Below are positions 2,677 to 27,739 of a DNA stretch of 41,971 bases, one piece after another (the first letter of the stretch is position 1; every line of letters begins with the position of its first letter). The stretch comes from an uncultured Oscillospiraceae bacterium (GTDB taxonomy: Bacteria; Bacillota; Clostridia; Oscillospirales; Oscillospiraceae): assembly GCA_947626905.1 (NCBI GenBank), contig CANQUE010000016.1, positions 1-41,971 of the forward strand, written 5' to 3'. The notes under the pieces were generated by a model. The model did not search any database, was not told the DNA's origin, and saw nothing but the letters and a program-made list of their open reading frames with translations. A program made the translations under genes and the position numbers.

Positions 2677-2681
2677 CACAC

Positions 2682-6289: not shown

Positions 6290-7593
6290 TGAAGGTCTGC
6301 CATATGACCAGCGCGCACGGTCAGGAAGACGTGCGTATTTTCCACAAGGAGTGCCGCTCCCTCGCCCAGGCCGGCTATGAAGTCTATTTTGTTTCCCCCG
6401 GTGAAACTTACGATAAGGACGGCGTCCATATCGCAGGGGTGGAAAAGGCTTCCGGCGGACGGCTGGCGCGGGCTCTGTATACCGCCAGAAATGTATATCT
6501 GAAAGCGCTGGAACTGGATGCGGACGTTTATCACTTCCATGACCCGGAGCTGCTGCCCTACGGGCTTATGCTGAAGAGGAAAGGCAAAGCCGTTATTTTT
6601 GACAGCCATGAGCATACGGCGGAACAGATCCTGGAAGAAAAGACCTGGATCCCCAAACCCATCCGCAGGATCGCGTACCATTCCTTCTGCTGGTATCAAA
6701 AAGCCGTCTGCAAAAGGATCGACTATGTTATCACGGTCACCCCTCATGTCTATGATTATTTCCATGCCTTCCAGCCCCATACGACCATAGTCACCAATTA
6801 TCCGATCTATCGTCCTCTGGACCATTTCCCCGACTATAGCAGCAAAACGGTCGGATTTGCCGGCGGCGTTTCCGCGTTTTGGAGTCATCATAACATCATC
6901 GCCGCCCTGGAAAAGATCGACGGAGCGCGCTATATCCTCTGCGGTCCCGGAGAGGAACAGTATCTGGCAACGCTGAAAGCGCTGCCGGGCTGGAGCAAAG
7001 TGGACTTCCGCGGGCTCATCCCTCACGGCGAGGTTTCGGCCGCCATGGCCCAGTGCAGCGTCGGCGTCGCCCTTTCCGCCTACAGGGGCTGCGTCGTCAA
7101 AGGGCAGGGGACGCTTGGCAACACGAAGATCTTCGAACAGATGATGGCCGGACTGCCTGTCGTATGTACGGATTTTCTGCTCTGGAAACAGATCATAGAT
7201 GAGTATCAGTGCGGGATCTGTATCGACCCGGACAGCATCGACGACATCGTTTCCGCCCTCACGACGCTGATGAATGACCCGAAGATGGCGGAGACCATGG
7301 GTAAGAACGGGCACCGCGCCATCAAAGAAAAATACAATTGGGACACCCAAAAGGATATCCTATTGGATGTCTATAACACGATGCACAACCCCCCCCCACA
7401 AGCTTACCTTCTCTGTTTGGCTGCTCTCCGGCCTCACCGCGGGCGCCACATCCCTGGGACGGCTGTATCTGCGTGTGCGAAAGGCCCTGTCCAAGAAGTA
7501 GTATTTGTTTCCCTTTGCCCTCTCCTGCATAGCGCCGTCCTGATAGCGGCGATATGGCAGCTGGATCATACGGATGCGAGGTGTCCGCTATGA
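6286..7593 (+). CDS. GT4 glycosyltransferase with a C9 tract that sets its C-terminal tail
   Basis: A cytoplasmic GT-B glycosyltransferase of family 4. VYHFHDPELLPYGLMLKRKG and VIFDSHE lie in the N-terminal half, and KIFEQMMAGLPVVCTDF near residue 290 is the nucleotide-sugar site. The conserved fold ends at about residue 367 (LLDVYNTMHN), exactly where nine C residues begin. In the present frame the protein reads through to a stop that overlaps the next start (ATGA, 7590-7593), giving 435 residues. With one C fewer it would end at 7501 with a 34-residue hydrophobic then basic tail whose codons have the G/C third bases typical of real genes here. With one C more it would end at 7532. Its 5' end is a close duplicate of the next gene. 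The sugar transferred is unknown. Confidence 0.85.
   Translation: MMKVCHMTSAHGQEDVRIFHKECRSLAQAGYEVYFVSPGETYDKDGVHIAGVEKASGGRLARALYTARNVYLKALELDADVYHFHDPELLPYGLMLKRKGKAVIFDSHEHTAEQILEEKTWIPKPIRRIAYHSFCWYQKAVCKRIDYVITVTPHVYDYFHAFQPHTTIVTNYPIYRPLDHFPDYSSKTVGFAGGVSAFWSHHNIIAALEKIDGARYILCGPGEEQYLATLKALPGWSKVDFRGLIPHGEVSAAMAQCSVGVALSAYRGCVVKGQGTLGNTKIFEQMMAGLPVVCTDFLLWKQIIDEYQCGICIDPDSIDDIVSALTTLMNDPKMAETMGKNGHRAIKEKYNWDTQKDILLDVYNTMHNPPPQAYLLCLAALRPHRGRHIPGTAVSACAKGPVQEVVFVSLCPLLHSAVLIAAIWQLDHTDARCPL
7389..7397 (+). repeat. C9 homopolymer at the end of the GT4 gene
   Basis: Nine consecutive C residues lie within codons 368-371 of the first glycosyltransferase. Length changes would swap the C-terminal tail and could alter translational coupling to the next gene. 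Confidence 0.95.
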
Positions 7594-8702
7594 TTAAAGT
7601 CTGCCATATGACCAGCGCACACCGTCAGGAAGATGTGCGTATTTTCCATAAGGAGTGCTGCTCCCTCGCCCAGGCCGGCTATGAAGTCTATCTGGTCTCT
7701 CCCGGTGAAACCTACGACAAAAACGGCGTCCATATCATCGGCATCCAAAAAGGCGCCAACCGCCTGGACCGGATCCTGCACGCCTCAAAGCGGGCCTATC
7801 AGGCCGCCCTGGCTCTGGACGCGGACGTCTATCACTTCCATGACCCGGAGCTGCTGCCCTACGGTCTGAAGCTGAAGAGAAAAGGGAAAAAAGTCATTTT
7901 TGACAGCCACGAATGCTATACGCTCCAGTTCCGGCATAAACCTTATCTTCCCGGCTGGTGCTCCCGCATATTGGCCTGGGCATACGGATACTACGAGCAT
8001 TATGTGGTCCGCCGGCTGGATGGGCTGGTGGTCCCCAGTCTGATCCAGGGGAAGAATCCTCTGGAAGGGGTATGCAAGCGCAGGGCGTTCGTCAACAACG
8101 TCCCAAAGCTGGAAGCATTTTACGATCGATATGACCCCGCCGTGCCGAAGTACCCCCGCAGCATCTGTTATACCGGCTCTCTGACATACGCCCGGGGCAT
8201 AACCCATCTGGTGAAGGCCGCCGCGAAGGCAGACTGCACCCTCTACCTCGCCGGATGGTTCGCCCCGGCAGAGTATCAGCAGCAAGTGCAGGCCCTTCCC
8301 GAGTTCTCTCATGCCGTATACCTGGGGCCGCTCTCCCGGGAGCAGATCCTGGACACGCTCCAGCACTGCCAGATCGGCATGGCCACGCTCCTGGACGTGG
8401 GCCAATACAGCCGGGCCTGCAATCTGGCCACAAAGTCATACGAATATATGTCCGTCGGACTGCCCGTGATCATGACCAGCTCCCCCTACAACGAAACCGT
8501 CTGTGAAAAATACCGGTTCGGCCTGTGCGTCGCGCCGGACGATATCGAGGGGATCGCCTCCGCGATCCGGCGCCTTCTGGACGACCCCGACGCCGCCAGG
8601 CAGATGGGCGAGAACGGACGGCGCGCGGTGAAGGAAGAATTCAACTGGAGCATCGAGGAGAAGAATCTCCTGAAATTGTACGAAGACATCTTGAACGACT
8701 GA
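7590..8702 (+). CDS. GT4 glycosyltransferase, tandem duplicate of the preceding gene
   Basis: This 370-residue GT-B glycosyltransferase begins almost identically to its neighbour (MIKVCHMTSAHRQEDVRIFH), also at the DNA level, but diverges after VIFDSHE. CYTGSLTYARGITHLVKAA starts the second Rossmann domain, and YEYMSVGLPVIMT is the donor-sugar region. It ends normally with LLKLYEDILND and has no long repeat. Two related transferases with conserved N-terminal (acceptor) halves and different C-terminal (donor) halves suggest that they act on similar lipid-linked acceptors with different sugars; this is inference. I placed the start at the ATG at 7590, which overlaps the upstream stop and follows GAGGTG by six bases. 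Confidence 0.85.
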   Translation: MIKVCHMTSAHRQEDVRIFHKECCSLAQAGYEVYLVSPGETYDKNGVHIIGIQKGANRLDRILHASKRAYQAALALDADVYHFHDPELLPYGLKLKRKGKKVIFDSHECYTLQFRHKPYLPGWCSRILAWAYGYYEHYVVRRLDGLVVPSLIQGKNPLEGVCKRRAFVNNVPKLEAFYDRYDPAVPKYPRSICYTGSLTYARGITHLVKAAAKADCTLYLAGWFAPAEYQQQVQALPEFSHAVYLGPLSREQILDTLQHCQIGMATLLDVGQYSRACNLATKSYEYMSVGLPVIMTSSPYNETVCEKYRFGLCVAPDDIEGIASAIRRLLDDPDAARQMGENGRRAVKEEFNWSIEEKNLLKLYEDILND

Positions 8703-8709
8703 GGAAGCT

Positions 8710-9780
8710 ATGGATTACGCTCTTATCGGCTGCGGGATGATCTCCCCCAACCACATCAACGCGGCGCTGGAAAGCGGCCTGCATATCGTGGCCCTTTGCG
8801 ACCTTGTGGAAGAAAACCGCCGGCGGGCGCTGGAGCTGATCCCCCCCGAGCTCCGGGGACAGGTCAGGCTCTATGGCGACTATACCCGGATGCTGTCCGA
8901 GCTGCACCCCCAGCTCGTGGCCATCGCCCTGGGAAGCGGACTGAAAAAGACTCTCTCCATCGACTGTATGCGAGCCGGGGCGAACGTGATCGTGGAAAAA
9001 CCCATCGCCCTGTCCCTGGCCGACGCGGACGCGATGATCGCCGAGGCGAAAAAATGCGGCGTCCGCCTTTGCGTCAACCACCAGCTCCGTTTCGGCCCTA
9101 CCGTCCGGGCCCTGAAGGCAGAGGCAGACGCCGGCCATTTCGGCAAGCTCCTCCACGGCACGGTACAGATCCGCCGCAACCGCAACAAGGCGTATTACGA
9201 TGCCGGCAAATGGCGGGGGACCTGGGCCCAGGACGGGGGCACGCTGATGAACCAGTGTATCCACTACACAGATCTCCTCCAGTGGTTCATGGGCTGCGAC
9301 GCCGAAGAGGTGTTCGCCTACACGGACCGGCTCGTCCACCCTTACATCGAGGCGGAGGACATGGCCCTGGCCCTGGTCAAGTTCCAAAACGGCGCCTACG
9401 CCATGATCGAGGGCACCGTGAACACCTATCCCCGCAACCTCAGCGACAGCCTGGCCCTGTTTGGGCAGACCGGCACCGTTTCCCTGTCCGGCAAAGCGCT
9501 GGATGAGGTGCAGGCCTGGGCCTTTGCCGCCGGACCCCAGAGCCGGGACGAGGCGCTGCGCCATTTCTCCGTCCATGACCTGGGAAAGGGCCACGTGCCG
9601 GTATACCGGGACATGATCGACGCCATCGAGACCGGCGGCCCGCTCCTCTGCCCCGCCGGGGACGGGAGGAAAGCGCTGGAGCTCGTGCTCGCGATCTATC
9701 GGTCCGCCGCCATCGGGCAGCCGGTGAAGCTGCCTCTGGGCGAAGCGGCCTGTTCCGATTTCATCGGAAGATTTGATTAA
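8710..9780 (+). CDS. Gfo/Idh/MocA NAD-dependent sugar dehydrogenase (WbpB/WlbA-like)
   Basis: A 356-residue protein with an N-terminal nucleotide-binding motif (MDYALIGCGMISPNHINAAL), the EKPIALSLADAD signature carrying the family's catalytic lysine, LCVNHQLRFGPTVRALK, and GGTLMNQCIHYTDLLQWFMG, with the histidine expected at the active site. WbpB/WlbA enzymes oxidise C3 of UDP-GlcNAcA before transamination by WbpE, and both partners are in this operon. It therefore completes the WbpA-B-E-D-I set, although it lies apart from the other four genes. A C7 run at 8841-8847 is inside the gene but in frame. The last ~60 codons have a decayed copy at 11388-11470, showing that this gene was part of a tandem duplication. 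Confidence 0.85.
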   Translation: MDYALIGCGMISPNHINAALESGLHIVALCDLVEENRRRALELIPPELRGQVRLYGDYTRMLSELHPQLVAIALGSGLKKTLSIDCMRAGANVIVEKPIALSLADADAMIAEAKKCGVRLCVNHQLRFGPTVRALKAEADAGHFGKLLHGTVQIRRNRNKAYYDAGKWRGTWAQDGGTLMNQCIHYTDLLQWFMGCDAEEVFAYTDRLVHPYIEAEDMALALVKFQNGAYAMIEGTVNTYPRNLSDSLALFGQTGTVSLSGKALDEVQAWAFAAGPQSRDEALRHFSVHDLGKGHVPVYRDMIDAIETGGPLLCPAGDGRKALELVLAIYRSAAIGQPVKLPLGEAACSDFIGRFD

Positions 9781-9798
9781 GACGAAGGGACCCTATCT

Positions 9799-11299
9799 AT
9801 GGAAACATTGGTCTATGATTTCGACGAAGCCGTTTCGGCCTATGCCATTGCTGACGCTCCCGTCGACCGGTTCAAAAACCACCTGCCCGTGGCCGACGGG
9901 AAGCTGGTGATAAGCTATACCACCGCCACCCAGGTCCATACCGCTCAGGCTATGGCCGGAGGCATGCCGCGGGAAGTCGCCGTCATCGGCATCTGCGTGG
10001 ACTCCCACAAAAAGCATGACGACCAGCCGGAGCAGGCCGCTTCCTATCTCGCCGGTCTGGACAAGAGCGACGTGGGATCTGTTTACCGCGCCTCCCGCCG
10101 CTTCGCCGGGCGCTTCATCGTCTTTTACCGGCTGGGGGACGCGATGTATCTGTTCGGTGACGCATACGGTATGCTCCAGATCAATTACGCCCGGATCGGC
10201 GGGCATTTTTGCGCCGCGGTCACCGACAAGCTGGTGGGAGATCACTTCGGTCTGGAACCTTCGCCGGAGTCCCTGGAGATCCAGTACAGCGGCGGCCTGG
10301 AACGGCCCATGCCCTACGACATGACCATGTACGACGGCGTCAAAGCGCTGCTCGCCGACCATTATCTCGACCTGTCGTCCATGGAGGCCTCCCGGATCAA
10401 ACTCCAATTCGCTCTTCAGGACACGCCGGAAAAGCAGCGGGCGGTGATCGACCGGACCGTGACCCTGGTGGACAACATCCTGGATAACTATCTCGCCATG
10501 GCCCCCATTGCCTGCCCATTGACCGGCGGGCACGACAGCCGGGTGGTATTCGCGTTCTTAAAACGCCTGGAAAAAGAGCTCAAATGCTATACTTTTCATC
10601 ACGCCGGTTTCACGGAAGACCATTACGATCTCGCCATACCCCGGGCGATAGCCAAAGATTACGATCTGGATTATTCTGTTTATAACATTTTAACCCCCCC
10701 CCCGAGAGTATTTTGACGCTATATCTGACATGGTCGGTCCCTGGCATTCCCCCACTTCCCTGTCCCTCGCGTACACGATAAAAGCACACCTTCCGGGGTA
10801 TATCATCCCGCCAAGCGATATTCTGGATCAGCTGGGGAAGTGCGAGTTCAACCACAATCTGCCGGAATGCTTTGCCACGGCGTCGTTTTTTAACGCAAGG
10901 CTCCACAAATACTCCCCCAAGGCCCTGCCCGAAATGAAAAAATTCGTGGCCGACTGCAGGTCCAATGGGGAGACCATCAGCAAATTTGAGCTTTACGATC
11001 TGGAGATCGACGGCTCCCGCTGGGTCGCGCAGGGAAGCGCCCTCAGCGCCCTTATGGGCCTCACCGCGCTCAATCCCTTTGACTGCGGCGAGTTGATCGA
11101 TCTATGGCTGGGCCTGCCCCGCAAGATCCGCACAAAGCTGTTCATCCACGATTCCGTCCTTGAACGTTTCGATCCGGCCTTGAGGGATTATCCGATAAAT
11201 CCCGGCAAACCGTATGCCAAGCTGCAGGAGCACGCCGGTCTTTATCTGTTAGGGACCTACGCCATGTTTTATCTGAGGAAGTTCAAAATACTGCGATGA
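9799..11299 (+). CDS. Asparagine-synthetase-like amidotransferase 1, phase-variable, currently frameshifted (OFF)
   Basis: Translation from the ATG at 9799 reaches a C10 tract near residue 298, shifts out of frame and stops at 10714-10716 after 305 residues. The second half continues in another frame from the tract to 11299. It matches the paralogue at 11532-13018 directly after the tract (REYFDAISDMV against PEYVQAVFDIV). With nine C residues the two halves join into 499 residues. The protein has a degenerate Ntn-like N-terminal domain (RFAGRFIVFYRLGDAMYLFGD) without the usual Cys2, then the ATP-pyrophosphatase motif PLTGGHDSRVVFAF. Related proteins in glycan loci convert uronic acids to uronamides, which would fit the mannuronic acid made here; the substrate is inferred. 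Only assembly error competes with phase variation as an explanation. Confidence 0.85.
10694..10703 (+). repeat. C10 homopolymer that breaks amidotransferase gene 1
   Basis: Ten C residues mark the exact point of the frameshift. Nine (or twelve) would restore the full frame. The paralogue codes the same Pro-Pro with CCG codons and has no tract. Confidence 0.96.
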
Positions 11300-11387
11300 T
11301 CCTGCTCCCTGTGTCCGGAAGCCGGGAAAAACCCACACGGAGGGCTGGGCCGCAGCATTTTGGCAGTCACGATCACAGTTTCAGCTA

Positions 11388-11470
11388 TGAGGAGGGCGCT
11401 GGAGCTCGTGCTCGCGATCTATCGGCCCGCCGCCCGGTCCAGGGGCGAGGACCTGCCGCTTGAACAGAGC
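11388..11470 (+). pseudogene. Decayed copy of the 3' end of the 8710-9780 dehydrogenase gene
   Basis: Bases 11396-11425 are identical to 9673-9702 inside the Gfo/Idh gene. The surrounding translation (RALELVLAIYRPAA against KALELVLAIYRSAA, then a similar LPL segment) shows that this is a remnant. It lies just upstream of the second asparagine-synthetase-like gene, as the intact version lies upstream of the first. The unit dehydrogenase-tail plus amidotransferase was therefore duplicated in tandem. Apart from this remnant I see only a ribosome-binding site in 11300-11531. Confidence 0.8.
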
Positions 11471-11531
11471 AGGTCGGCCTGCCGTTCATACATTTTCCGG
11501 ACATTTTTATTTGAGAAGGAGCTTTTTGATC

Positions 11532-13018
11532 ATGTGTCCCGATTTTTCCTTGGACAACGCTGTGTTCACATACATTGCCGCCAGGCAGCCCGTTGCGCTG
11601 TTCTCCCAGCACCGCCCGATATTCGGCGGACGCCTGACCGTCAGTCACACGTCAAAGACCGACGTCCTATCCGCCGTATCCGGGGACAGGGAGGCCGTCA
11701 TCATTGGCTTCTGCATCGACTCCCATGGCGAGATCCCCCGCGAGCGGATCGCGGAGCACTTGGTTTCCTATTCTGTGGAGAGAGAGAGAGAGAGAGAGAG
11801 GATCTTGTCACTTTAAATCGTGTATGTGATCGTTTCGCAGGCAAATATGTCATTCTATACCGCGTTGGAGAGGACCTGTACGCTTGGGGCGACGCCTCCT
11901 GTTCCATGCAGGTGAACTATTCTTTCTGGAAAGATGAGCTGTGCATCAGCTCTATCGATAACCTGATCGCAAAATACCACGGCCTATCTATTTCAGACTA
12001 TTCCATGCAGATCCGTCAAGGTTCGTCCCTGACCCAGGCGATGCCAAACGACCTGACCATGTTTGACGAGGTAAAGGCCCTGCTGCCCGACCATTACCTG
12101 GATGTTTCCCGAAAGAAAGCCGTCCGGATCCATTTGGGCGTAACGGAGTCCAAGCAAGCTGATCTGGACGCCATCTGTGACCGTTCCATCGCCCTTCTCT
12201 CCCAGATCGCAGCGGAATATACAAAGGCCTACCCGTTCGCCTGTCCCCTCAGCTCCGGATATGACAGCCGGTTGGTGTACGCATTTCTTTCCGCCGCCGT
12301 TCCCGATCTGCAGTGTTACACCTTTCGCCATCCAAACTTTACGGAAAAAACAGGCGACCTGTGGGTCCCGGTCAAGATATGCGCAGACCAGGGCACAAAA
12401 CACACGCTCATCCCCGATATCAAAGCGCCGCCGGAATACGTTCAGGCAGTTTTTGATATCGTCGGCGATTATCATGCCGTCAGCACGGTCGATCTGGTCT
12501 GGACATACAAGTCTGTCTTCTCCGGGTACGCAAACTCGACCGGTGATATTTATGGCCAGATCATGCAGAACGCCCTGGCAAGCACCGTTCCCGCCTCTCT
12601 GGCCGGCGCGGCGTATCTGGTCTGCAAGACACACAACTACGCGCCCGGGGCAAAAGAGGAGATCGCCTCTTGGGTAGAAGATCTCCGCGCCTGTGGCGAG
12701 GGTGCCTCCATTACCGACCTCTTCGCCCTGGAATACCGGTGCGGCCGCTGGGCCAGCCAGGGCTCCGCCATATCCTCCGTTTGCGGGCTCGCCAGTCTGT
12801 TGACCGCCAACTGCCGGGAACTGATCCTGTTGTGGATGCAAGTACCCAGGAAACTGCGTTCCCGGCAGAAAATACATCGCACCATCCTGGGAAAAGCGAA
12901 CCCTGACCTGTTAAAGTATCCGTTCAACCCCGGTTCCTATTTGGATAAGACTAACCGCTTTTGGCCCGCGTACTATGCCGCGACCTTTATAAAGTACCAT
13001 CTGGGCAGGCCCCGATGA
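11532..13018 (+). CDS. Asparagine-synthetase-like amidotransferase 2, phase-variable, currently frameshifted (OFF)
   Basis: The natural start is the ATG at 11532, preceded by AGAAGGAG. Translation gives a good N-terminal domain until a (GA)11G tract at codon ~83, then shifts and stops at 11814-11816 after 94 residues. The remaining four fifths, from DLVTLNRVCDRFAGKYVILY onward, lie in another frame and run to 13018. Losing one GA unit, or gaining two, joins them into about 494 residues. The paralogue 9799-11299 aligns across the joint. The ATP-pyrophosphatase motif is PLSSGYDSRLVYAF. The N-terminal domain lacks an N-terminal catalytic cysteine, so ammonia may come from elsewhere. The expected role is amidation of a uronic acid in the glycan (inferred from family use in O-antigen loci). 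Both copies are OFF in this sequence. Confidence 0.85.
11778..11800 (+). repeat. (GA)11G dinucleotide repeat inside amidotransferase gene 2
   Basis: Twenty-three bases of alternating G and A encode an Arg-Glu run. The number of units decides whether the downstream frame is read; the present number puts it out of frame. Confidence 0.96.
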
Positions 13019-13094
13019 TATATATATCCATCCATATGTATGTTTTTTATACGCCGGCGATCATTGCATGCTGTTTTCCAAAGGAGAGATCCAT

Positions 13095-14771: not shown

Positions 14772-14860
14772 CTCTTTTCCTATGGACCTCATGCCCTCTT
14801 TGGGAACAACGCTGTGTTTCCTCCTTCACGGGATAACGCAGAAATACATCACAAGGAGGT

Positions 14861-16950: not shown

Positions 16951-17010
16951 AGGTCCCTGGCCCCGTCGTTTTTCTCCCCTTTCATCTGATGCTGCGAGGT
17001 TGACACGTCC

Positions 17011-18596: not shown

Positions 18597-18618
18597 CCGG
18601 ACGGGGCGGCAGCGCAGT

Positions 18619-20973
18619 TTATATCGCCACGCGCACCGTTCTCGTCATTCTCTCCACCAGGTCATAGCCGTCCCAGATCAAGTCAAAATCCATGGTGTGT
18701 CCGATCGGTACGACCCGATCCACGCCTTTGATCCCGGATCGCAGCACCGGCCCGACCAAAGAGCCATCCCCCAGCACGCCGATCGTCTGACAGCGGACAT
18801 CGTTGCAGAGATCCCTGATCTCCAAGATGTCCTCACACTCATACTCATAAAAATATCCGCAATTGCCCCGATAATCCATGAGCCTTGGGGATGCCTCATA
18901 AACCTGGAGCCTTACCAGCCGATTGTCCGTCTTTTCCATTTCCCGCATCTTGCCCAGCCCCGCCGCACACGCCTCATATTCCAACGAGAGCTTGTCCACC
19001 GCCTGGATCTTTTGAAACGGGTATTTCTCCTTCACCAGCGCATAAAGCGCGTCCCAAAATCGCCCCTGCGCCTCTTTCCTGGCCCGTCCGGTCCATATCA
19101 CGATCCGGGGACTGGTACAGGCGTTCTGATCGGACAGGAAGGTATCGTTATAAAAGTCCGACGCGATCCGCGCCGCCGTTTTTTCGCCCTCGTCACCGGA
19201 CAAAAGCCCCATATAATGGTCGGCGTCGAGCACCGCCAGGGAGTACCTGTCCGCGAAGGTGATCTCCGTCGCCCTCGGCGGCAGGGGAGAGTTTCGCACT
19301 TCCGCTATCGTGGCGTCACCGCCCCACACGACTCTCACGTCGCACAGGGAGGACAGCACGTCATTGATCTCCCTGCTGCGCTCGTACCGCACCAACGCGA
19401 CATAGGGCGCGAGAGCCTTATGCTTTTCCAGGACCGCCCTGAGCGCGGCGTTTATGATCCCGACCTGGGGAAAATCCTTCGTCGGGACTCTGACAATGTT
19501 GGCGTTGCCGCACATCAGGCCGGAAAACAGCGAATAGGCATAGTTGACCGGCACATTGGAGGGGGCGATGTGGAAGACCACGCCCCGCCCTATCCGGGCA
19601 TTCTCTCCGTCCGCCGCAAACCGCGCCTTCAGCTTCGATACCGAAGCTCTTCTGAGCCAAAACCCCAGGGTGACCACATCAGAAAAGGACCTGGCCTCTC
19701 TGCTCCGCATCAGCTCCTTGGACAGGTCGTCCAAAAAGTCGATCATCTCCTCCGAAAAAGGAGCCAGCGGAGGCGCGGAGGGCATATCCATCACCGTCTG
19801 GATATCCCCCAGCAAAAAGCGCACCTTGTCCAGCTTGCGGGGGTCCTTCTTCTCCTCCTGGTCAGACGGCGATACAGGCAGGGCGCTGTGATCCGCGGCA
19901 AAAGTATCGCTGCATCCCCGGATCTCGGCGTTTTTCAGCCGCCCCAGGATCTTAAAGTATTTTCCCTTTCGGCCGCACGGGCAGTCATCCTCCCCCAGCA
20001 GCACCCCTTCATCCTCTGTCAGCAGAGAATGGCCGGGATACGACTCCGGGATCGTGGAAACCACCTGGAGGATCCCGGTCTTTCCGATCCCGCATTCGGA
20101 AAAATCCACCGGGTCCCGCACGATCACATCGGAAAAAGCGCTGGCATGCAGATGGCCGCACTCACATTCCATATAGATGCAGCCGGTCTGTTCGACCATG
20201 CCGTAATAATCATGGACCCTCTTCAGGCCGCACACAGACTGCAGCCTTGCGCGGAATTCTTCCGGGCTGATCGCCTCGCTGGCCAGCTTTTTCCAGCCGC
20301 CTCCATGGATAAGAACGCAGTCGGAGAGGTCAAAAACGACCCCCTCTTCCCTGAGCTTTAGCAGTTCTTTATAAAAATACTGCCATATCATGAAGGTAAA
20401 GCCGAACATAAAAACAGTCTGCCCGGAATTCTGCTTCAAAAATTCCCGCAAACCATCCACATCCAGCTTCATATCGTCATCAAAAGCGTAGATCTTCTTC
20501 GCCCCGAATATGGAAAACCCCAGTATCCCCGCGCCCCGCGCGGAAAACATCGCCCTGTTTTTCAGCACGGACGGGCAGTCCAATATGATCATAGGCATAC
20601 GGTTGGGGCCAAGGAAGTCATTGACGATCTTCACCATTGCCTTTTGCTGGTTGGAGGAAGTGACCTTGTCGAGATAGATCTTTGAAACGCGCTGGCCAGT
20701 GGTCCCGGAGGAAGTCATGGTCTTGACGATCTCGCCGTCGTCCACGCTTTTCAAAGACAGCTCCTTGAACAGCCGCACAGGCAGAAACGGGATGTCTTTA
20801 TACGACCTGACCGAGGCGGGATCGTAAGAGATCGTATCCAGAATGTCCCTATATGCTTTGCAGCTGCTCCTGTGCTTTTCGGTAAGCTGTTTCAGCCGTT
20901 CCGTCAGCATCTTTTCTTTCTCTTCTTTGTTCAGAGAATAGGGGGCTATCCCCAGGAAATCTTCAAATGTCAC
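18619..20973 (-). CDS. LuxE-LuxC fusion: acyl-protein synthetase plus acyl reductase
   Basis: A 784-residue two-domain enzyme. Residues 1-~355 are LuxE-like: FLPVRLFKE, the AMP-forming motif TMTSSGTTGQRVSK, DYYGMVEQTG and two cysteine clusters, CECGHLHAS and CPCGRKGK. Residues ~375-784 are LuxC-like, an aldehyde-dehydrogenase-fold acyl reductase with VFHIAPSNVPVNYAYSLFSG and the nucleophilic cysteine in SDQNACTSPRIVIW. In luminous bacteria LuxE activates an acyl group and LuxC reduces it to an aldehyde as separate proteins; here both activities are on one chain. No luciferase genes exist, so the aldehyde presumably feeds glycan or lipid synthesis. The start overlaps the thioesterase stop by four bases. 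It is the last gene of the minus-strand operon. Confidence 0.85.
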   Translation of the reverse strand: MTFEDFLGIAPYSLNKEEKEKMLTERLKQLTEKHRSSCKAYRDILDTISYDPASVRSYKDIPFLPVRLFKELSLKSVDDGEIVKTMTSSGTTGQRVSKIYLDKVTSSNQQKAMVKIVNDFLGPNRMPMIILDCPSVLKNRAMFSARGAGILGFSIFGAKKIYAFDDDMKLDVDGLREFLKQNSGQTVFMFGFTFMIWQYFYKELLKLREEGVVFDLSDCVLIHGGGWKKLASEAISPEEFRARLQSVCGLKRVHDYYGMVEQTGCIYMECECGHLHASAFSDVIVRDPVDFSECGIGKTGILQVVSTIPESYPGHSLLTEDEGVLLGEDDCPCGRKGKYFKILGRLKNAEIRGCSDTFAADHSALPVSPSDQEEKKDPRKLDKVRFLLGDIQTVMDMPSAPPLAPFSEEMIDFLDDLSKELMRSREARSFSDVVTLGFWLRRASVSKLKARFAADGENARIGRGVVFHIAPSNVPVNYAYSLFSGLMCGNANIVRVPTKDFPQVGIINAALRAVLEKHKALAPYVALVRYERSREINDVLSSLCDVRVVWGGDATIAEVRNSPLPPRATEITFADRYSLAVLDADHYMGLLSGDEGEKTAARIASDFYNDTFLSDQNACTSPRIVIWTGRARKEAQGRFWDALYALVKEKYPFQKIQAVDKLSLEYEACAAGLGKMREMEKTDNRLVRLQVYEASPRLMDYRGNCGYFYEYECEDILEIRDLCNDVRCQTIGVLGDGSLVGPVLRSGIKGVDRVVPIGHTMDFDLIWDGYDLVERMTRTVRVAI

Positions 20974-21668
20974 GCCGTCACCCCCAGTTTTTTCATGATA
21001 AGGTCCCCCATCTGCTCACAATGCTCATTTATAAAAAAATGGGAGCCGCTGTATTCAACGAACTCGCAGCTTTTATGGAAATACTCGGTCCACGCGTCCA
21101 TATCGGCCCTTGGGGTATCCTCCTGCGAATAAAATACGACGGCGGGAACGTCCGTTGAAAAACGCAGGGATCGGAAATCATACCTGCCGATCATCTGATA
21201 ATCCGCCTTATACAGCGGCAAATATACCCTCCAGAAGCTGCGGTTTTCTATCAGACCCTCCGGAACGCCCCCGAAGCGCACGGTCCTCTGTTTCACATAT
21301 TCATCCAGGTCGTCTTCTGTCAGCCGCCCGATATCAACGACGGCCTTGGGCGCGTGGGCGGACAGGAAAACCATCTTCGGCAAAGGGATCTCCCCCTTGA
21401 CCAATATGGTCCGCAGGACCTCTGTCGCGGCGATGCTTCCCATGCTGTAGCCCAGGAGGGCATAGCCGCTCCCATCCAGATCTTCCTTTATTTTCAAATA
21501 CAGATCCGCGGCGATCTGCTGAAAAGAGGAGCACAGGGGTTCTTTTCTTCGCCGGCCGTGTCCAGGGTATTCCAGCTTCACAAAGTCGATCCGGCCCTTA
21601 CAGCAGTCTTCCAGTTTGTCGAAAAATGCCGCCGTTCCACCCGCGATCGTAAAGCAAAACAGCTGCAT
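20970..21668 (-). CDS. Type II (GrsT/SrfAD-like) thioesterase
   Basis: The 232-residue alpha/beta hydrolase has LEYPGHGRRRKEP, the nucleophile elbow GYSMGS and the late catalytic histidine in YSGSHFFIN. This is the pattern of external thioesterases that serve non-ribosomal and polyketide assembly lines by freeing acyl groups from carrier proteins. Here the natural partner is the single ACP encoded 1.5 kb upstream in the operon. With the downstream LuxE-LuxC it reproduces the thioesterase, synthetase and reductase trio of bacterial fatty-acid reductase systems, although LuxD is a different hydrolase. It starts 18 bases after the acyl ligase stop. Confidence 0.85.
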   Translation of the reverse strand: MQLFCFTIAGGTAAFFDKLEDCCKGRIDFVKLEYPGHGRRRKEPLCSSFQQIAADLYLKIKEDLDGSGYALLGYSMGSIAATEVLRTILVKGEIPLPKMVFLSAHAPKAVVDIGRLTEDDLDEYVKQRTVRFGGVPEGLIENRSFWRVYLPLYKADYQMIGRYDFRSLRFSTDVPAVVFYSQEDTPRADMDAWTEYFHKSCEFVEYSGSHFFINEHCEQMGDLIMKKLGVTA

Positions 21669-21686
21669 AACAAACCTCCGGGTCCC

Positions 21687-23102
21687 TCAGGACCGCTGAA
21701 AATAGCGCGCCAATTCCTTATACAACGTCTTCCCCGCGTCATTTTTGGGGATCTCATCGATCACAACGATCTCAAACGCCGCCGGATTCAGCCCGGTCTT
21801 TCCCACCACATAATCCTTGACGCCGGACGCGAGAGAAGGATCGGTGATAAAAATATACATATGGTCGTCTATCCCGGAGCTGGCGCAGTCGATCTGGCCG
21901 AACTTCCCCTTGAGCAGCCGGTCGATCTCATCCAGGTTGACCCTGTTCCCGTATATCTTCAGAAATCTCTTTTTTCTTCCGACGATGTAATAATACCCGC
22001 TCTCGTCAAACTGCGCGATATCTCCCGTCTGGAGGACGCCCTTCCTCTCGTCCCCTTTTTGCAGATCGTCCACATTCTCGGCGTATCCCAAGGTCACATT
22101 CGGCCCTTCGTATACCAGCTCTCCCGGCGTATAAGGCTCCGAGATCTCCTGGCCCTCGTCGTCTATGAGCCGGAATTTTCCCCCGGGAATGGCGATCCCC
22201 ATGGACCCGCATTTTTCGACGGATCTCTCCGCCGGCAGGTATCCCATGCGGGCCGTCGCCTCGCACTGGCCGTACATCACGACAAAGTCCCTGCCTTTTT
22301 TCCGGGCGTCCTCGGCAAATTTTTTGTGCAGCTCCGGGGTGAGCTTCCCCCCCGCCTGGGTCATATAGCGCAGGGAGGGCAGATCCATCCTGTAAAAGCG
22401 CAGCCTGTCGAGCATTTCGTACGTGTAGGGCACCCCCCCAAAGGAGGTGGCCTTTTGCTCCCTAAAAAAGGACCAGAATTCCTTTTGCATCAGCCCTTTT
22501 TCCGTCAGCAGCAGCGTGGCGCCCACGAAGAGATGGCTGTTGATGATGGAAAGGCCATAGGTATAGTTCATGGGGAGCGTGGTGATCGGGCGCTCCGTTT
22601 CATCCAGACGCAGATATTCCACGATGGATCTCGCATTGGATTCCACGTTTTTATAGCTCTGCCTGACGAATTTGGGACTTCCCGTAGACCCGGAAGTGGT
22701 CAGCAGCAGGCATAGCTGAGGATTCAGTTCGTACCGATCGGAGTAACCCGTTTTCAGCAGCTTATAACCGTACGATCCATAGACGCTCTCGGCGGCCGGA
22801 AAAGTCCCCGCCATCTCCTCAGGCACCCACAGAAAAGACGGATGGTATTGTTCGATCAGACTGTCCAGCGATCCCCTCTCCAAATGCGCGTTGAGCAGAA
22901 GGGGCACGATGCCATTGTCGATCAGCGACGCATATCCCGCGACCGCGCCAATGGTATTTTGGCAGAGCACAAAGACCAGGCACCGCTTCCCGATGTGTCC
23001 CGCGATCCGCTCTTCCTCCGAAGCCAGCTGGGCATATGTCACCGACCTGCCGAATTCGTCCAATAAAGCCGTATTACTTCCGAACGAACTTATATCCCAC
23101 AT
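21687..23102 (-). CDS. ANL-superfamily acyl/amino acid-AMP ligase
   Basis: A 471-residue adenylate-forming enzyme. The phosphate loop is LLTTSGSTGSPKFVRQS; later come YGQCEATARMGY, TGDIAQFDESGYYYIVGRKK and the C-terminal catalytic lysine region KNDAGKTLYKELARY. It activates a carboxylic acid as acyl-AMP and most likely loads it on the ACP encoded immediately upstream, 15 bases away. The acid cannot be predicted by eye. Two C7 runs on the plus strand (22347-22353 and 22433-22439) fall inside the gene but are in frame and short. Confidence 0.88.
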   Translation of the reverse strand: MWDISSFGSNTALLDEFGRSVTYAQLASEEERIAGHIGKRCLVFVLCQNTIGAVAGYASLIDNGIVPLLLNAHLERGSLDSLIEQYHPSFLWVPEEMAGTFPAAESVYGSYGYKLLKTGYSDRYELNPQLCLLLTTSGSTGSPKFVRQSYKNVESNARSIVEYLRLDETERPITTLPMNYTYGLSIINSHLFVGATLLLTEKGLMQKEFWSFFREQKATSFGGVPYTYEMLDRLRFYRMDLPSLRYMTQAGGKLTPELHKKFAEDARKKGRDFVVMYGQCEATARMGYLPAERSVEKCGSMGIAIPGGKFRLIDDEGQEISEPYTPGELVYEGPNVTLGYAENVDDLQKGDERKGVLQTGDIAQFDESGYYYIVGRKKRFLKIYGNRVNLDEIDRLLKGKFGQIDCASSGIDDHMYIFITDPSLASGVKDYVVGKTGLNPAAFEIVVIDEIPKNDAGKTLYKELARYFQRS

Positions 23103-23117
23103 GTTCCTGCTCCCTGT

Positions 23118-23357: not shown

Positions 23358-23389
23358 CTCATATTTCCTCTTTTCTTATTTATTCTGTT

Positions 23390-24424
23390 TCAGACCAGAT
23401 CGGATCTCATCAGTACGCGATCCGCCCCGATATCGTGCTTCGCAATGCTTCCGACGACGCTCTCCAGCTCGGCCGGCGCAATGCCTGTGCCGGGCCGTTT
23501 GACGTCCAGGTCTTCCCGCCGCAATCTCTCTCCCGCGCGGATGTCCCTTGTCGTGACCACGCTCCTGCGCATATTCTCCCGCTGTTTTATCTCCCCCGGC
23601 AGCAGGACCCGGTCTTTTGTCCCCAATGCCAGTTGGATGGTCTTGCACTTTCTCACGAGTTCACGCAGCGGCCCGGGCTCCATCGCCATTTGGTTGTCCA
23701 TCCCGATCTTGGAAGCGTCCAGCGTGATATGCTTTTCAAGCACAGCCGCTCCCAGGACCGTGGCCGCGACCGCCGCCTCGTCCCCGATCGTGTGGTCCGA
23801 AAAGCCCACCGGATACTCTGGGAACAGCTCTCGCAGGCCCAGCATATTATTGAGGTTGGCGTTTTCTATCGCAGTGGGGTAGATCGAAACGCAGTGCAGG
23901 ATGACGATGTTCTCGTTGCCCGCGGCCTTCAGGATACGGATCGCCTCTTTGACCTCCGCGAACTCGGCCATTCCTGTGGAGATGACGAGAGGAACGTTCT
24001 TTTTCGCGATATACTCTAAAAACTGAGGGTTGTTCACCTCCATGGAGGATATCTTGATAAACGGCACATCGCATTCCTCAACGAGAAAGTCGACCTCCGC
24101 TTTGGAATACGGCGTGGAGGAGAAGGAGACCCCTTTTTCTCTGCAATAGGCAGCCATCTCTTTCAGGACTTCCGGCGGCATGGACAGTTTTTTTACAAAG
24201 CGCTTCGCGATCGGGTTTTTGTCATAATATGTCCGGGAATACAACGATTCTACCGACCAGGACTGAAACTTCACGCAATCACAGCCGGCGTCGGCCGCGG
24301 CGTCGATCATCCTTTTCGCCACTTCCGGATCGCCGTTGTGGCTGCTGTTCACCTCCGCGATGATATACGGCGCGCCAAACTCGGATATGACCTTGCCATC
24401 GTTAAAACGAACTTCCTTCAACAC
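23390..24424 (-). CDS. NeuB-family PEP-condensing synthase with C-terminal SAF domain
   Basis: A 344-residue protein with the NeuB/SpsE barrel motifs IAEVNSSHNGDPEVAKRMI, CVKFQSW, FSSTPYSKAEVDFL, HCVSIYPT, GFSDHTIGDEAAVAA and EKHITLD, and a C-terminal SAF (antifreeze-like) domain with RSVVTTRDIRAGERL. Family members condense phosphoenolpyruvate with a hexosamine to give sialic, legionaminic or pseudaminic acids. Here the usual DHxxSLEP motif is changed to MDNQMAMEP, and no CMP-transferase, hydrolysing epimerase or PseB/C/G gene is present. A standard nonulosonate is therefore doubtful, and an unusual aldehyde acceptor is possible. It lies 12 bases after the TPP enzyme gene. Confidence 0.85.
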   Translation of the reverse strand: MLKEVRFNDGKVISEFGAPYIIAEVNSSHNGDPEVAKRMIDAAADAGCDCVKFQSWSVESLYSRTYYDKNPIAKRFVKKLSMPPEVLKEMAAYCREKGVSFSSTPYSKAEVDFLVEECDVPFIKISSMEVNNPQFLEYIAKKNVPLVISTGMAEFAEVKEAIRILKAAGNENIVILHCVSIYPTAIENANLNNMLGLRELFPEYPVGFSDHTIGDEAAVAATVLGAAVLEKHITLDASKIGMDNQMAMEPGPLRELVRKCKTIQLALGTKDRVLLPGEIKQRENMRRSVVTTRDIRAGERLRREDLDVKRPGTGIAPAELESVVGSIAKHDIGADRVLMRSDLV

Positions 24425-24436
24425 AGCATCCGACTC

Positions 24437-26227
24437 CTATTCTTGTATCGGTTCCACGATCATTTCTCTTAAAAACACCTCTCTGGAAATAAACGGGGAC
24501 AGGTCCTCCAATGGCCGTTTGACCAGCTTCCGCGCCTCGTTTATCGCAAAAGAAGTATGCAGGTATTTTTGCTTTTCAGCGCATACCACCTCGCAGATGC
24601 ATGCTCCATCCATTTCCAACACGCTTTTCAGACCGTCCGCCAGGCCGCCGGGACGGTCCACTTTCTTATAGGCGAACCCAAAGCATTCCGCGATCTTTTG
24701 GATATCCGGCGCCGCCAGGCCGTCCGATGGATCGTTGCCTATGGTCCTGTTTCTGAACAGGTCCTGCTGCCGCTTGCGGATGACCGCATACATGTTGTTA
24801 TTGATCACGAATATCTTGGCCGGGATATGGTTGCCCGCTATGGCAAGCAGCTCCTGCACATTCATCATAAGGGACCCATCTCCGACCACAACGGCGATGT
24901 GCCTTTTCCCGGCGTAATGTGCTCCCAAAACGGCCGGGATCGCGTATCCCATCGCCCCTTGGTTCGTTGGAAACAGGCATCTCTGTCCCCTGCCGTACCG
25001 CACGGAGGACGGGATGATCAGTTCCTCAAAACCGGCGTCCGTTATGACCGTCGCGTCCGCCGGGAGGATCTCCGATAATGTATCAGAAAAATGGTACAGG
25101 TCTATTTGTCCCTCTTGTAAATAGTCCTTTACAAATCCTTCGTTTTGAATGGAAAACATCTCTTTCCATTCGAGGCACTTGCACACCCAGCTCTCATCCG
25201 CCTGTTTGACAGGATACCGCGACAGCCGGTCGATAAACACCCGGATGTCGGACAGGATCAGCTCATCGATGGCGACCCCTTCCTTTTTGTGCTCCGCCGG
25301 ATCGATGTCGACGGCGAACACCTTCGCGCCGCGGGCAAACTGATCGGGCTGGCCCGTCGTTTGAGAGCACAGCTTGGAGCCCAGGACCAGGACCAGATCC
25401 GCGTTCTGGACCGCCATATTCCCCGCTCTGCTCCCTCCCAGACTTCCGACAGCGCCGACAGACAGACGGTTTGCCGTTCCATACACATCGGCGGCCGACG
25501 GAGAGAACACCACGGGAAAGCCGTGGTCTTCGATGAATCTCACCACTTCCTCCTGGGCTCCGGAGGATCTGACCCCGCCCCCAAGATACAGTATCGGGCG
25601 CCGGGCCCTCTGAAGCTCGTCCGCCAGGCGCTCCACAGCGCGGCAGTCCACGTCCGCGCGCTCCTCCGGGCCATCCCAGCCCTCCAGTCCTTCCGGGTCG
25701 ATCCGCGCATTTTGCAGATCCAGCGGGATATCGATCCAGACGGGGCCTTTTCTGCCTTCATTGGCAAAATAAAAGGCCTTATCCAGCTCCTTCCTGATAT
25801 CCTTCGCCTCGGTCAGCATCACCGCATACTTGGTCACAGAGGCGGCGATGCTCACGATATCGGCTTGCTGGGAGCCGTACGTCCTGATGGGAAGTCCGGT
25901 ATACCCGGTCGTTTCACGGAGCATATTTTGTCCGGAAATAAACATCACCGGCAGATTATCCTGATAAGCGCACAGAGCGGCTGTAATGGCGTTCGCCGCG
26001 GCGCATCCGGTGGATACAAGGCAGGCGCCCATTCCCTCCCCGGCGGCCGCATACGCCATGGCCGCATAGGAAGCGCCCTGCTCGTGATAAGCCGAAACGC
26101 CGGTGACCTGCTGATTTTTCGCCACCGCGTCGGTGAGGTACAGCACGCCCCGCCCGGTGATCAAGAATATATGACCAACGCCCCGCTCAACAAGGCGTTT
26201 CATTACATAATCTGCCACTCTTTCCAT
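24437..26227 (-). CDS. Thiamine-diphosphate enzyme, acetolactate-synthase-like
   Basis: The ~596-residue protein has the three domains of the acetolactate-synthase group. The catalytic glutamate is in AYHEQGASYAAMAYA; the central domain has LYLGGGVRSSGAQEE; the ThDP/Mg motif is VVGDGSLMMNVQELLAIAGN followed by NNN. Such enzymes decarboxylate a 2-oxo acid and add the two-carbon unit to an acceptor. YerE-type relatives do this on a keto-sugar to make branched sugars; that parallel is a suggestion only. No small regulatory subunit or other branched-chain amino acid gene is nearby, so a housekeeping IlvB is unlikely. I chose the ATG at 26227, whose A is also the last base of the upstream TGA; a GTG one codon earlier is possible. 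Confidence 0.87.
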   Translation of the reverse strand: MERVADYVMKRLVERGVGHIFLITGRGVLYLTDAVAKNQQVTGVSAYHEQGASYAAMAYAAAGEGMGACLVSTGCAAANAITAALCAYQDNLPVMFISGQNMLRETTGYTGLPIRTYGSQQADIVSIAASVTKYAVMLTEAKDIRKELDKAFYFANEGRKGPVWIDIPLDLQNARIDPEGLEGWDGPEERADVDCRAVERLADELQRARRPILYLGGGVRSSGAQEEVVRFIEDHGFPVVFSPSAADVYGTANRLSVGAVGSLGGSRAGNMAVQNADLVLVLGSKLCSQTTGQPDQFARGAKVFAVDIDPAEHKKEGVAIDELILSDIRVFIDRLSRYPVKQADESWVCKCLEWKEMFSIQNEGFVKDYLQEGQIDLYHFSDTLSEILPADATVITDAGFEELIIPSSVRYGRGQRCLFPTNQGAMGYAIPAVLGAHYAGKRHIAVVVGDGSLMMNVQELLAIAGNHIPAKIFVINNNMYAVIRKRQQDLFRNRTIGNDPSDGLAAPDIQKIAECFGFAYKKVDRPGGLADGLKSVLEMDGACICEVVCAEKQKYLHTSFAINEARKLVKRPLEDLSPFISREVFLREMIVEPIQE

Positions 26228-26695
26228 CACTGTTTCCCCTTAGTCGGTACAGCCATAAGAGAGGGGACGCAGACGATCAATTTGCAGCAACACGCCATCT
26301 CACCGTTCAGATAGCCTTCCACATGGCCCTTGGCGATCCCTCTTCTGAAGTAATCCAAATAGGCCTTTGTATCCAGCCTGTTTCCCGGCTTGATCATTTT
26401 GAGAAACCTCAATTCTGTGATTTGTGAATCTGCTGTTTCTACCCCCCCCCAGTTCAGGATCTGTGAGAAAGGTCATAATGAACGTTTCGATCATCGTTTC
26501 CAGTTGGATCGCCCCGGGAACATTGGGGTTATCGCTGAAATGTCCCTGAAAAAACCACTCGTTGGCCGAGAAATTCTTATATCCGTATGCGTGGTGCATC
26601 GGCTCCGCTTCTTCTATCCCGTCCAGCATCAAAAACGGATATCGGTTTTTCATACACCGCTGTATATCCAGAAGCCCTAAGTTCCTTACGGTCAT
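26227..26695 (-). CDS. FabZ-like hot-dog dehydratase B, phase-variable, currently frameshifted (OFF)
   Basis: Translation from 26695 shows a FabZ-like fold (IQRCMKNRYPFLMLDGIEEA, catalytic His in QGHFSDNPNVPGAIQLE) up to a G9 run at codon ~83, then shifts into a meaningless tail ending at 26300. In another frame the true second half continues as VETADSQITELRFLKMIKPG and YFRRGIAKGHVEGYLNGEMA to a stop at 26227, matching the two neighbouring paralogues. With eight G residues the gene reads as one 155-residue protein. The start overlaps the upstream stop as ATGA, and the true stop overlaps the TPP enzyme start. In the OFF state ribosomes leave before that overlap, which may also lower translation of the next gene. 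Confidence 0.88.
26442..26450 (-). repeat. G9 (plus-strand C9) homopolymer that breaks FabZ-like gene B
   Basis: Nine C residues on the plus strand coincide with the frame change. Eight or eleven would restore the frame. Confidence 0.96.
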
Positions 26696-27168
26696 CCGTT
26701 GCTCCTTTTTGGCAGGAAGGACTTGAAGATGTCGGGTACCGATAACAGCATCTCCGCCTCACACGCGATCTCGCCGTTTACCCGTCCGATCCCTTTGCAT
26801 TGGAACAGTCCGCGCTTTGACGATACGATCTCCGTTTCCAGATCGAATCTCTCGCCGGGCCTGACTTCCCTCCTGAACCGCACGGTATGCTTCAGCCCAT
26901 GGACCACCTTGTCCTCCAGTCCGGGCACCGTCAGAATGGCTACCGTCGCCATCTGGGCCAGGGCCTCGAGCTGCAGCGCCCCCGGCATATTTGGATCGTC
27001 CGGAAAATGGACCGGGAAAAACCATTCGTTGTTCGTAAGATTCTTATAGCCCTTTGCCGAGACCCCCGGTATAACTTCCGTCACATAGTCGATCAGAAGA
27101 AAGGGATACCGGTTGGGCTGATATTTTTGCAGCTCCAAAGAATCCAGTGAAAATGCCTTGTTTTCCAT
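26692..27168 (-). CDS. FabZ-like hot-dog dehydratase A (intact)
   Basis: A 158-residue hot-dog protein. KYQPNRYPFLLIDYVTEV opens the fold. The active-site helix VHFPDDPNMPGALQLEALAQ carries the catalytic histidine and glutamate of 3-hydroxyacyl-ACP dehydratases, and RVNGEIACEAEMLLSV ends it. It is one of three related genes in a row. In FabZ these residues remove water from 3-hydroxyacyl-ACP; three copies beside one ACP suggest chain-specific or heteromeric dehydratases. I start it at the ATG at 27168, after GGGGAGGAC, although the frame is open back to 27204. It has no long repeat, unlike both neighbours. Confidence 0.88.
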   Translation of the reverse strand: MENKAFSLDSLELQKYQPNRYPFLLIDYVTEVIPGVSAKGYKNLTNNEWFFPVHFPDDPNMPGALQLEALAQMATVAILTVPGLEDKVVHGLKHTVRFRREVRPGERFDLETEIVSSKRGLFQCKGIGRVNGEIACEAEMLLSVPDIFKSFLPKRSNG

Positions 27169-27184
27169 TTCAATGTCCTCCCCA

Positions 27185-27739
27185 TCAAGATGCCCGCAAG
27201 GCATTATTCAGTTTTCTCTGGCCTGCAAGCCCGTTATGGAAGTTGAGGATTACCCCCCCCCCGGCGCCGGACGCCGGTCTGTATTTTCTCATGATATCCG
27301 GGATCGCGATGACGAACTTTGCCTGGCAGGCAAATTCCCCGTTGACTTTCCCGACTGCCGATCCTTTGGCCAACCCACGCCGATAGGATTCCAGATCCGC
27401 CTCTATATCCAGTCTGTCCCCCGGTATGATCTTTCTCTTAAATTCAGACTCCACTTTTACAAACGCCGTTTTCCGTCCTTTGTTCCCGGGAAGCGTCAAA
27501 AACGTCATCAGAAACACTTGCGTCAGCGCTTCCATTTGGACAAAGCCCGGTACGTTTGGCTCGTCCTGGAAATGGGCCGGGAAAAACCACTCGTTGTACG
27601 AAAAATTCTTATGCCCGCGGGCCATTTTCCCCGGGATGGCTTCCGCTATATGATCCACAAAAAGCAAGGGATATCTGTTTTGCTGATATTCCTGGATCTT
27701 ATACGCGTCCAAGTCTTTGAGCACGACCGTTTCTTCCAT
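27185..27739 (-). CDS. FabZ-like hot-dog dehydratase C with a G10 tract in its tail
   Basis: The fold runs from YQQNRYPLLFVDHIAEAIPG through AHFQDEPNVPGFVQMEALTQ, with the catalytic His and Glu, to KVNGEFACQAKFVIAIPDIM. Paralogues end about ten residues later, and exactly there this gene has ten G residues (codon ~160). At present it reads on for a 24-residue tail to a stop at 27185, directly before the ribosome-binding site of the next gene. With nine G residues it would stop at 27250, giving 162 residues; with eleven it would also stop early. The tract should not affect catalysis, but it could tune coupling to dehydratase A or the stability of the tail. It starts 11 bases after the LpxD-like gene. 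Confidence 0.85.
   Translation of the reverse strand: MEETVVLKDLDAYKIQEYQQNRYPLLFVDHIAEAIPGKMARGHKNFSYNEWFFPAHFQDEPNVPGFVQMEALTQVFLMTFLTLPGNKGRKTAFVKVESEFKRKIIPGDRLDIEADLESYRRGLAKGSAVGKVNGEFACQAKFVIAIPDIMRKYRPASGAGGGVILNFHNGLAGQRKLNNALRAS
27253..27262 (-). repeat. G10 (plus-strand C10) homopolymer at the end of FabZ-like gene C
   Basis: Ten C residues on the plus strand. The length decides which of three tails the dehydratase carries and how far its stop lies from the next gene's start. Confidence 0.95.

Follow-up and report, generated by a model that had tools for sequence, protein, structure and literature searches.

Whether a bacterium of the Clostridia may vary its surface glycans through simple-sequence repeats is the question raised by a 41,971-nucleotide (nt) stretch of contig CANQUE010000016.1 (assembly GCA_947626905.1), which derives from an uncultured Oscillospiraceae bacterium and is referred to in full as the window. 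Six simple repeats, labelled T1-T6 in plus-strand order (Table 1), are spread over two gene clusters, one on the plus strand (~1004-18528) and one on the minus strand (28790-18619), which are convergent as judged from gene order and strand, in agreement with the two convergent glycan operons of a preliminary description of this DNA. That description had proposed slipped-strand phase variation, and we consider it very likely that the six repeats are simple-sequence contingency loci of this slipped-strand kind. The proposal is supported by the tract lengths, by breaks in the genes at or beside the tracts and, above all, by the comparison with other genomes of the genus.

Tract lengths and reading frames

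All six repeats were found where they had first been placed, and all exceed published working cut-offs for such repeats, i.e., at least 7 for G/C tracts and at least 6 units for dinucleotide repeats (PMC6321876). Outside 7389-27262, no single-base run in the window exceeds 7, consistent with the earlier remark that the other half of the window lacks runs of nine or more. The (GA)11 repeat was reached in 0 of 100 dinucleotide shuffles, and a Markov estimate from the window gives approximately 0.3-1.5 expected C runs, compared with 5 observed. The whole genome is a better chance test than shuffles of the window. In this draft genome (2,154,006 bases in 87 contigs, 90.9% complete), there are 13 G/C runs of at least 9, of which 5 are in the window contig (1.95% of the genome); the binomial probability of this clustering is 3e-6, a post hoc value given that the window was chosen for its tracts. 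Three runs have a length of 8, nine of 9 and four of 10, and none is longer; under a fixed growth chance of 0.3 or 0.5 per step, the probability that at most 3 of the 16 runs stand at exactly 8 is 3e-5 or 0.01, respectively. Eight of the 13 long runs are outside the window, showing that the system extends beyond this locus, and four of these eight are in or just before genes of glycan-related families (two FkbM methyltransferases, a sugar-transfer ATP-grasp protein and a phosphoglycosyltransferase). One run of 8 is in a third FkbM copy, and the two remaining runs of this length (contigs C2 and C72) look unrelated.

The consequences for the reading frames were read from alignments of homologues to the window in different frames. 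An AsnB-like homologue without a long repeat from another genome of the family (L158) aligns to both AsnB-like genes in two pieces. In the first gene, the match follows frame 1 as far as 10668 and resumes in frame 2 at 10694, where T2 begins; in the second, it leaves frame 3 at 11765 and resumes in frame 2 at 11831, on the far side of T3. At T5, the alignments of four out of five FabZ homologues leave frame -1 at 26432-26456 and carry on in frame -2; for L083, the fifth homologue, frame -1 is followed past the tract to 26267, and a -2 piece covers the same end. The three genes initially described as broken at the repeat are thus those in which homology switches frame at or beside T2, T3, and T5, and the one gene described as in frame is the Wzy-like gene, whose frame is open across T4 for 567 amino acids. 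The two genes said to receive different tails carry T1 and T6, which sit behind conserved domains, where a unit change alters the C-terminal tail only. The stop codon of the present T1 frame, at 7591-7593, overlaps the next start at 7590, and stops in the two alternative frames come 57 and 88 nt earlier. For T6, the distance from the stop to the start of the following gene is 16 nt in the present frame and 65 and 81 nt in the alternatives. Since the present frames of both genes end beside the following start codon, T1 and T6 may also tune translational coupling. Of the 14 own repeats in the whole genome (13 G/C runs and the GA repeat), 5 are in open and 4 in broken frames, 2 are in tails, 2 are in leaders or between genes, and 1 is ambiguous.

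Homologous repeats within the genus

Among 35 genomes of the genus, the own genome included, C9 is present in 27. FkbM genes give 14 matches in 6 of the 35 genomes, three of the matches being in the own genome. Tracts of G7-G10 occur in eight of the 14 at a site in the cofactor-binding region and in two at a second, more N-terminal site; three others have no run of at least 8, and the last (L214) has a C9 of uncertain placement. Of the ten FkbM tract genes, three of them from the own genome, four have an open frame, and in six the frame shifts at the tract. The FkbM tracts occupy fixed places, vary in length and are found in both frame states. GA repeats of at least 8 units occur in 6 of the 35 genomes, in genes for AsnB-like (own genome), radical-SAM, short-chain dehydrogenase, GDP-mannose-dehydratase-like, acyltransferase and EcoRI-type methylase proteins and in a 525-codon unassigned frame. 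Two radical-SAM orthologues differ in both length and frame state, with (TC)14 and a likely start out of the domain frame in G013, and (TC)22 and one open frame in G027; these states were read from translations, and the homologue alignment runs through the short N-terminal part.

Two further observations concern repeats elsewhere in the genus. Among the EcoRI-type adenine methylases, one (L192:1842-3460, in G015) has (AG)25 near its C-terminus, with the family match split over two frames, and another (L193:541-1009, in G014) has (AG)10 near its C-terminus, making both candidates for phase-variable methylation; no repeat is listed in any of the other EcoRI-type methylase loci of the genus that were looked at. 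In addition, three G9 runs approximately 200 bases apart (L130:1501, 1698, and 1900, in G031) have near-identical short surroundings and are outside any clear long frame.

It could be argued that the broken genes are decaying, i.e., that they are pseudogenes in which the tract merely marks the site of the first frameshift. Runs are frequent sites of frameshifts, and 4 of the 9 assessable repeat genes of the own genome are broken. However, at T2, T3, and T5, homology carries on towards the end of the gene after the frame change, homologous tracts in the genus are found both open and broken, and long runs are otherwise rare in the genome, so that we give gene decay little credence.

Several other observations weigh against the contingency-locus interpretation as well. 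The C tracts of the window, taken alone, are only weakly unusual on a dinucleotide-shuffle null, because its 7 C9 words (mean 2.84 in shuffles) are equalled or exceeded in 5 of 100 shuffles. No glycan-related family match was obtained for the genes at or near four of the eight long runs outside the window, C9 is absent from 8 of the 35 genomes of the genus, and many of the tracts in 29 loci from 27 genomes (L107-L135) are at gene edges or outside clear glycan genes. DNA relatives of the plus-strand cluster in the genus amount to short matches only, and the GA repeats in G013 and G027 account for two of these. Among the relatives of the LuxE-LuxC gene of the minus-strand cluster that were kept (80 of 106), 69 loci, some of them short, have no G/C run of at least 8, so that the repeats here are a local gain. 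The assignment of both AsnB-like genes is weak, with matches below cut-off. Moreover, the homologous tracts that vary in length are in genes other than the six of the window: the support that the preliminary description sought in tract lengths of related genomes came from the FkbM and radical-SAM genes, in which lengths vary with open and broken frames, and such variation was not seen for the six window tracts themselves.

Boundary sequence of long G runs

The long runs share a strict flank. Read on the G strand, runs of at least 9 in the own genome are followed by T in 13/13 cases (TA in 10, TT in 3) and preceded by C or T in 13/13, compared with T next in 15-18% and TA in 2-7% of runs of 3 to 7 in the fetched DNA of this genome. 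In other species of the genus, 37/45 runs of at least 8 are followed by T and 27/45 by TA (background 20% and 4.5%); these loci, retrieved for other purposes, do not constitute a random sample, and for the count L107-L110, L133, and L134 were left out as doubtful, L135 was kept and the same place was counted once. Among the LuxE-LuxC relatives, TA follows 11/32 runs of at least 7 (background 6%). A genome titled Selenomonadaceae (G060, locus L105) has TA after 15/20 and C before 17/20 runs, these being 20 of 22 listed runs of at least 9. TA follows 8/17 and 6/12 runs in two genomes titled Lachnospiraceae (the latter being 12 of 13 listed), 2/8 of the runs listed in a genome titled Gastranaerophilales, and 0/4 runs in three other genomes (4 of 11 listed).

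The flank signal is strongest at positions -1, +1, and +2, with weaker A/T-richness at -8/-7 and, in the 13 own runs, also at +4 and +7. No longer shared sequence was seen around the long G runs in the flank comparison, which makes descent of one cassette unlikely. A promoter reading of the TA behind the runs, as part of a -10 box, was dropped, since the hexamers behind the runs, inspected by eye, do not share such a box. A bolder idea, which we regard as doubtful, is that the poly-G tracts of several gut lineages form a distinct class of DNA element with the boundary rule Y-G(9+)-T-A, unlike shorter runs. The rule would then suggest that the tracts are made, maintained or destabilised at a recognised site, whether by an enzyme or through strong selection for a weak TpA step adjoining the run, instead of being random homopolymers that per-gene selection retains. 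The boundary rule may also separate such tracts from ordinary runs in genomes rich in guanine and cytosine (GC), and it raises the question of how the tracts originate. Two genomes titled Candidatus Gastranaerophilales (G057 and G058, with loci L084 and L087) are AT-rich, with loci of 31-32% GC, and contain 95 and 76 overlapping C9 words, which probably represent dozens of poly-G tracts.

The flank also bears on whether the tracts are products of assembly or sequencing error, with lengths off by a unit and genes that are simply intact. Homopolymers are error-prone, the genome is a draft in 87 contigs, and the poly-C of three genomes of the genus was itself distrusted, that of G001 and G002 being long or clustered, in part near contig ends, and that of G003 high in count. 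Errors would not be expected to yield a T(A/T) flank after every one of 13 runs or more runs of 9 than of 8. Furthermore, runs recur at homologous sites, one of the six repeats is a dinucleotide, the neighbouring repeat-free genes are unbroken, and long tracts remain even if single lengths are wrong; error is therefore a very improbable explanation. Least probable of all is programmed slippage by RNA polymerase or the ribosome, giving a steady mix of products without DNA change, since, although runs can cause transcript slippage and T1 and T6 do give alternative tails, the 14 and 22 units of the orthologous GA repeats, with their different frame states, and the G7-G10 tracts of the FkbM homologues point to change at the DNA level.

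Gene clusters and proposed glycan switching

If the six repeats are contingency loci, slipped-strand mispairing in replication would alter the number of repeat units, and each unit change would shift a reading frame, toggling single glycan genes off or on, cell by cell. Amidation of uronic acids would depend on T2 and T3, polymerisation or ligation of the chain on T4, and one FabZ-like step in the NeuB/LuxE-LuxC module on T5; T1 and T6 would only swap C-terminal tails. We infer that tract lengths change within one population and that the glycan changes with them. Family matches agree with the earlier view that the repeats affect glycosyl transfer, amidation, polymerisation and acyl processing; amidation is the weakest of these assignments because the AsnB matches stay below cut-off. 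In known systems, glycan switching serves to evade recognition of the glycan by phages, antibodies or rivals, and it may have the same use here. An uncultured genus, probably of the gut, would then possess Campylobacter-like switching of surface glycans, with six repeats in one locus, and consensus genomes would record such genes as broken or intact by the chance of sampling, which would mislead studies of strains, phages and immunity.

One of the closest counterparts is the poly-G/C phasome of Campylobacter jejuni, which comprises capsule, lipooligosaccharide and flagellar glycan loci (PMC6321876; PMC8437040). As here, G/C tracts of 9-10 are found in surface-glycan genes, several per cluster, with frames open or broken; Campylobacter tract lengths peak at 9 (53%) and 10 (26%), with 7, 8, 11, and 12 less common (PMC6321876). 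By contrast, the present host is GC-rich, a GA dinucleotide class recurs in its genus, and variation is predicted from sequence. The strict Y-G(9,10)-T(A/T) flank is set down as a feature of this genome, apart from any comparison with Campylobacter flanks. T1 and T6, near the 3' ends of their genes and changing tails only, resemble the C-terminal phase variation of Neisseria gonorrhoeae and Helicobacter canadensis (PMC5320596), but differ in that here each present frame closes next to the following start codon. Repeats have already served to call phase variation in a survey of frame transitions across 1106 prokaryotic genomes (PMC3711429), and mono-, di-, and trinucleotide repeats are strongly avoided over all phyla in another survey (PMC4060949). 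In part of a 2025 review, invertible promoters and CmrRST are the examples given for C. difficile, and a repeat phasome in Clostridia is not mentioned there (PMC11868660). We found no description of repeat-mediated phase variation in such a Clostridia-like host among the titles and abstracts listed from the open-licence literature. On our best reading, the mechanism and the layout are of a known kind, the host group is one without a description found, and the boundary rule is most worth following.

The genes of both clusters were assigned by Pfam and NCBIfam profile matches (Table 1).

Table 1. Repeat tracts, genes of the two clusters and genes with G/C runs elsewhere in the genome
Feature	Position	Strand	Family match or remark
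T1, C9	7389-7397	+	tail class
T2, C10	10694-10703	+	
T3, (GA)11 plus a G	11778-11799	+	
T4, C9	13930-13938	+	open frame
T5, C9 on plus strand (G9 in gene)	26442-26450	-	
T6, C10 on plus strand (G10 in gene)	27253-27262	-	tail class
First gene of plus cluster	from ~1004	+	no family assigned
Hexapeptide (LpxD/NeuD-like) sugar acyltransferase, WbpD-like role	1780..2676	+	Pfam Hexapep; NCBIfam LpxD, NeuD below cut-off
DegT/DnrJ aminotransferase, WbpE-like role	2439..3809	+	PF01041, 3.2e-102; overlaps upstream gene, true start probably later
Nucleotide-sugar dehydrogenase, WbpA-like role	3850..5169	+	TIGR03026, 428.8 bits, over cut-off
UDP-GlcNAc 2-epimerase (WecB/WbpI-like)	5036..6289	+	TIGR00236, 264.7 bits, over cut-off; overlaps upstream gene, true start probably later
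GT4-type glycosyltransferase, T1 in C-terminal tail	6286..7593	+	PF00534; stop overlaps next start (ATGA)
Second GT4-type glycosyltransferase, paralogue of first	7590..8702	+	PF00534; start inferred from similar N-terminus of first copy
Gfo/Idh/MocA oxidoreductase, WbpB-like role	8710..9780	+	PF01408, PF22725
AsnB-like amidotransferase, putative WbpS-like role, frame change at T2	9799..11299	+	TIGR01536, 9.6e-5, far below cut-off
Second AsnB-like gene, frame change at T3	11460..13018	+	NF033561, 2e-7, below cut-off; 5' start uncertain
Wzy polymerase/O-antigen-ligase-like membrane protein, open across T4	13068..14771	+	PF04932, 1.9e-9; 8 hydrophobic segments
Polytopic membrane protein	14861..16192	+	no Pfam match; 9 hydrophobic segments
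Possible Wzz-like chain-length protein	16069..16950	+	two hydrophobic segments; PF02706, E 0.072, below cut-off
MurJ/MOP-family flippase (Wzx-like)	17011..18528	+	PF03023, 5.8e-58; 11 hydrophobic segments
LuxE-LuxC fusion (acyl-protein synthetase/acyl reductase)	18619..20973	-	PF04443, PF05893
Thioesterase	20970..21668	-	PF00975
AMP-forming acyl ligase	21687..23102	-	PF00501
NeuB-family nonulosonate synthase	23390..24424	-	PF03102; TIGR03569 below cut-off
Thiamine pyrophosphate (TPP)-dependent enzyme (acetolactate-synthase-like)	24437..26230	-	PF02775/PF00205/PF02776
Third FabZ-like dehydratase, frame change at T5	26254..26695	-	PF07977
Second FabZ-like dehydratase	26692..27168	-	PF07977; start ATG 27168
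First FabZ-like dehydratase, T6 in tail	27185..27739	-	PF07977
Hexapeptide transferase, probable first gene of minus cluster	27750..28790	-	PF00132
Two FkbM methyltransferase genes with long run	outside window		one open, one broken
Neighbouring third FkbM copy	outside window		8-run, open
Sugar-transfer ATP-grasp gene with long run	outside window		open
HAD-domain gene with long run	outside window		open
573-codon membrane-like frame with long run	outside window		no family match; open
Stretch before phosphoglycosyltransferase domain, long run	outside window		open frame, classed as leader
G10 upstream of lipoprotein-like gene	L204:1635-1644, own contig C64		could act on transcription or leader
Eighth long run outside window	outside window		place and frame state ambiguous

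The plus-strand cluster resembles a Wzx/Wzy pathway, and it contains enzyme families known from the UDP-di-N-acetyl-uronic-acid (Wbp) route. No initiating transferase was identified among the window genes scanned, and one Bac_transf gene is present elsewhere in the genome. In Porphyromonas gingivalis, the Wbp pathway likewise includes dehydrogenase, oxidoreductase, aminotransferase, acyltransferase and 2-epimerase families, which are here found together with AsnB-like genes in one cluster, and deletion of the AsnB-like wbpS abolishes the uronamide (PMC7468200), suggesting that the charge of the glycan would depend on the two AsnB-like genes with repeats. The present cluster differs in having two AsnB-like genes, weakly assigned and both bearing repeats. 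The first AsnB-like gene has no Pfam match, and its 3' piece has no match; the second is its paralogue, with a 38% match to the first copy. A relative of the first was found at E 1e-10 in 1 of 399 other genomes drawn from the family, at a locus without a long repeat, and none in the viral contigs searched. In the Wzy-like gene, a 21-base tandem repeat at 14096-14211 lies between two hydrophobic segments, where a change in copy number would preserve the frame.

The minus-strand cluster combines a nonulosonate synthase with acyl-processing genes. LuxE, LuxC, AMP-ligase and fatty-acid genes also occur near nonulosonate genes in the group II flagellin glycosylation islands of Aeromonas (PMC7874193). 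A flagellin glycosylation island, prompted by LuxE/LuxC and NeuB, was rejected for this locus, since there are 0 PF00669 (flagellin) matches in the genome, which is 90.9% complete. The cluster is further unlike the Aeromonas islands in that LuxE and LuxC are fused, a Wzx/Wzy-like cluster adjoins, and FabZ copies, a TPP enzyme and a thioesterase are present. LuxE and LuxC are both found in 4 of the 35 genomes of the genus and are separate genes in the other three. When one best match is taken for each gene at each locus, the same order of FabZ, TPP enzyme, NeuB, AMP ligase and LuxE-LuxC is seen in L036, which is titled Pseudobutyrivibrio and also has a thioesterase, and in L083 and L085 (titled Gastranaerophilales), the titles being those of the depositors. 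Relatives such as L027 and L036 match the repeat-free LuxE-LuxC, AMP-ligase, NeuB and TPP-enzyme genes nearly end to end in a single frame. Three FabZ-like copies lie in tandem at 26254-27739, and two of them contain repeats.

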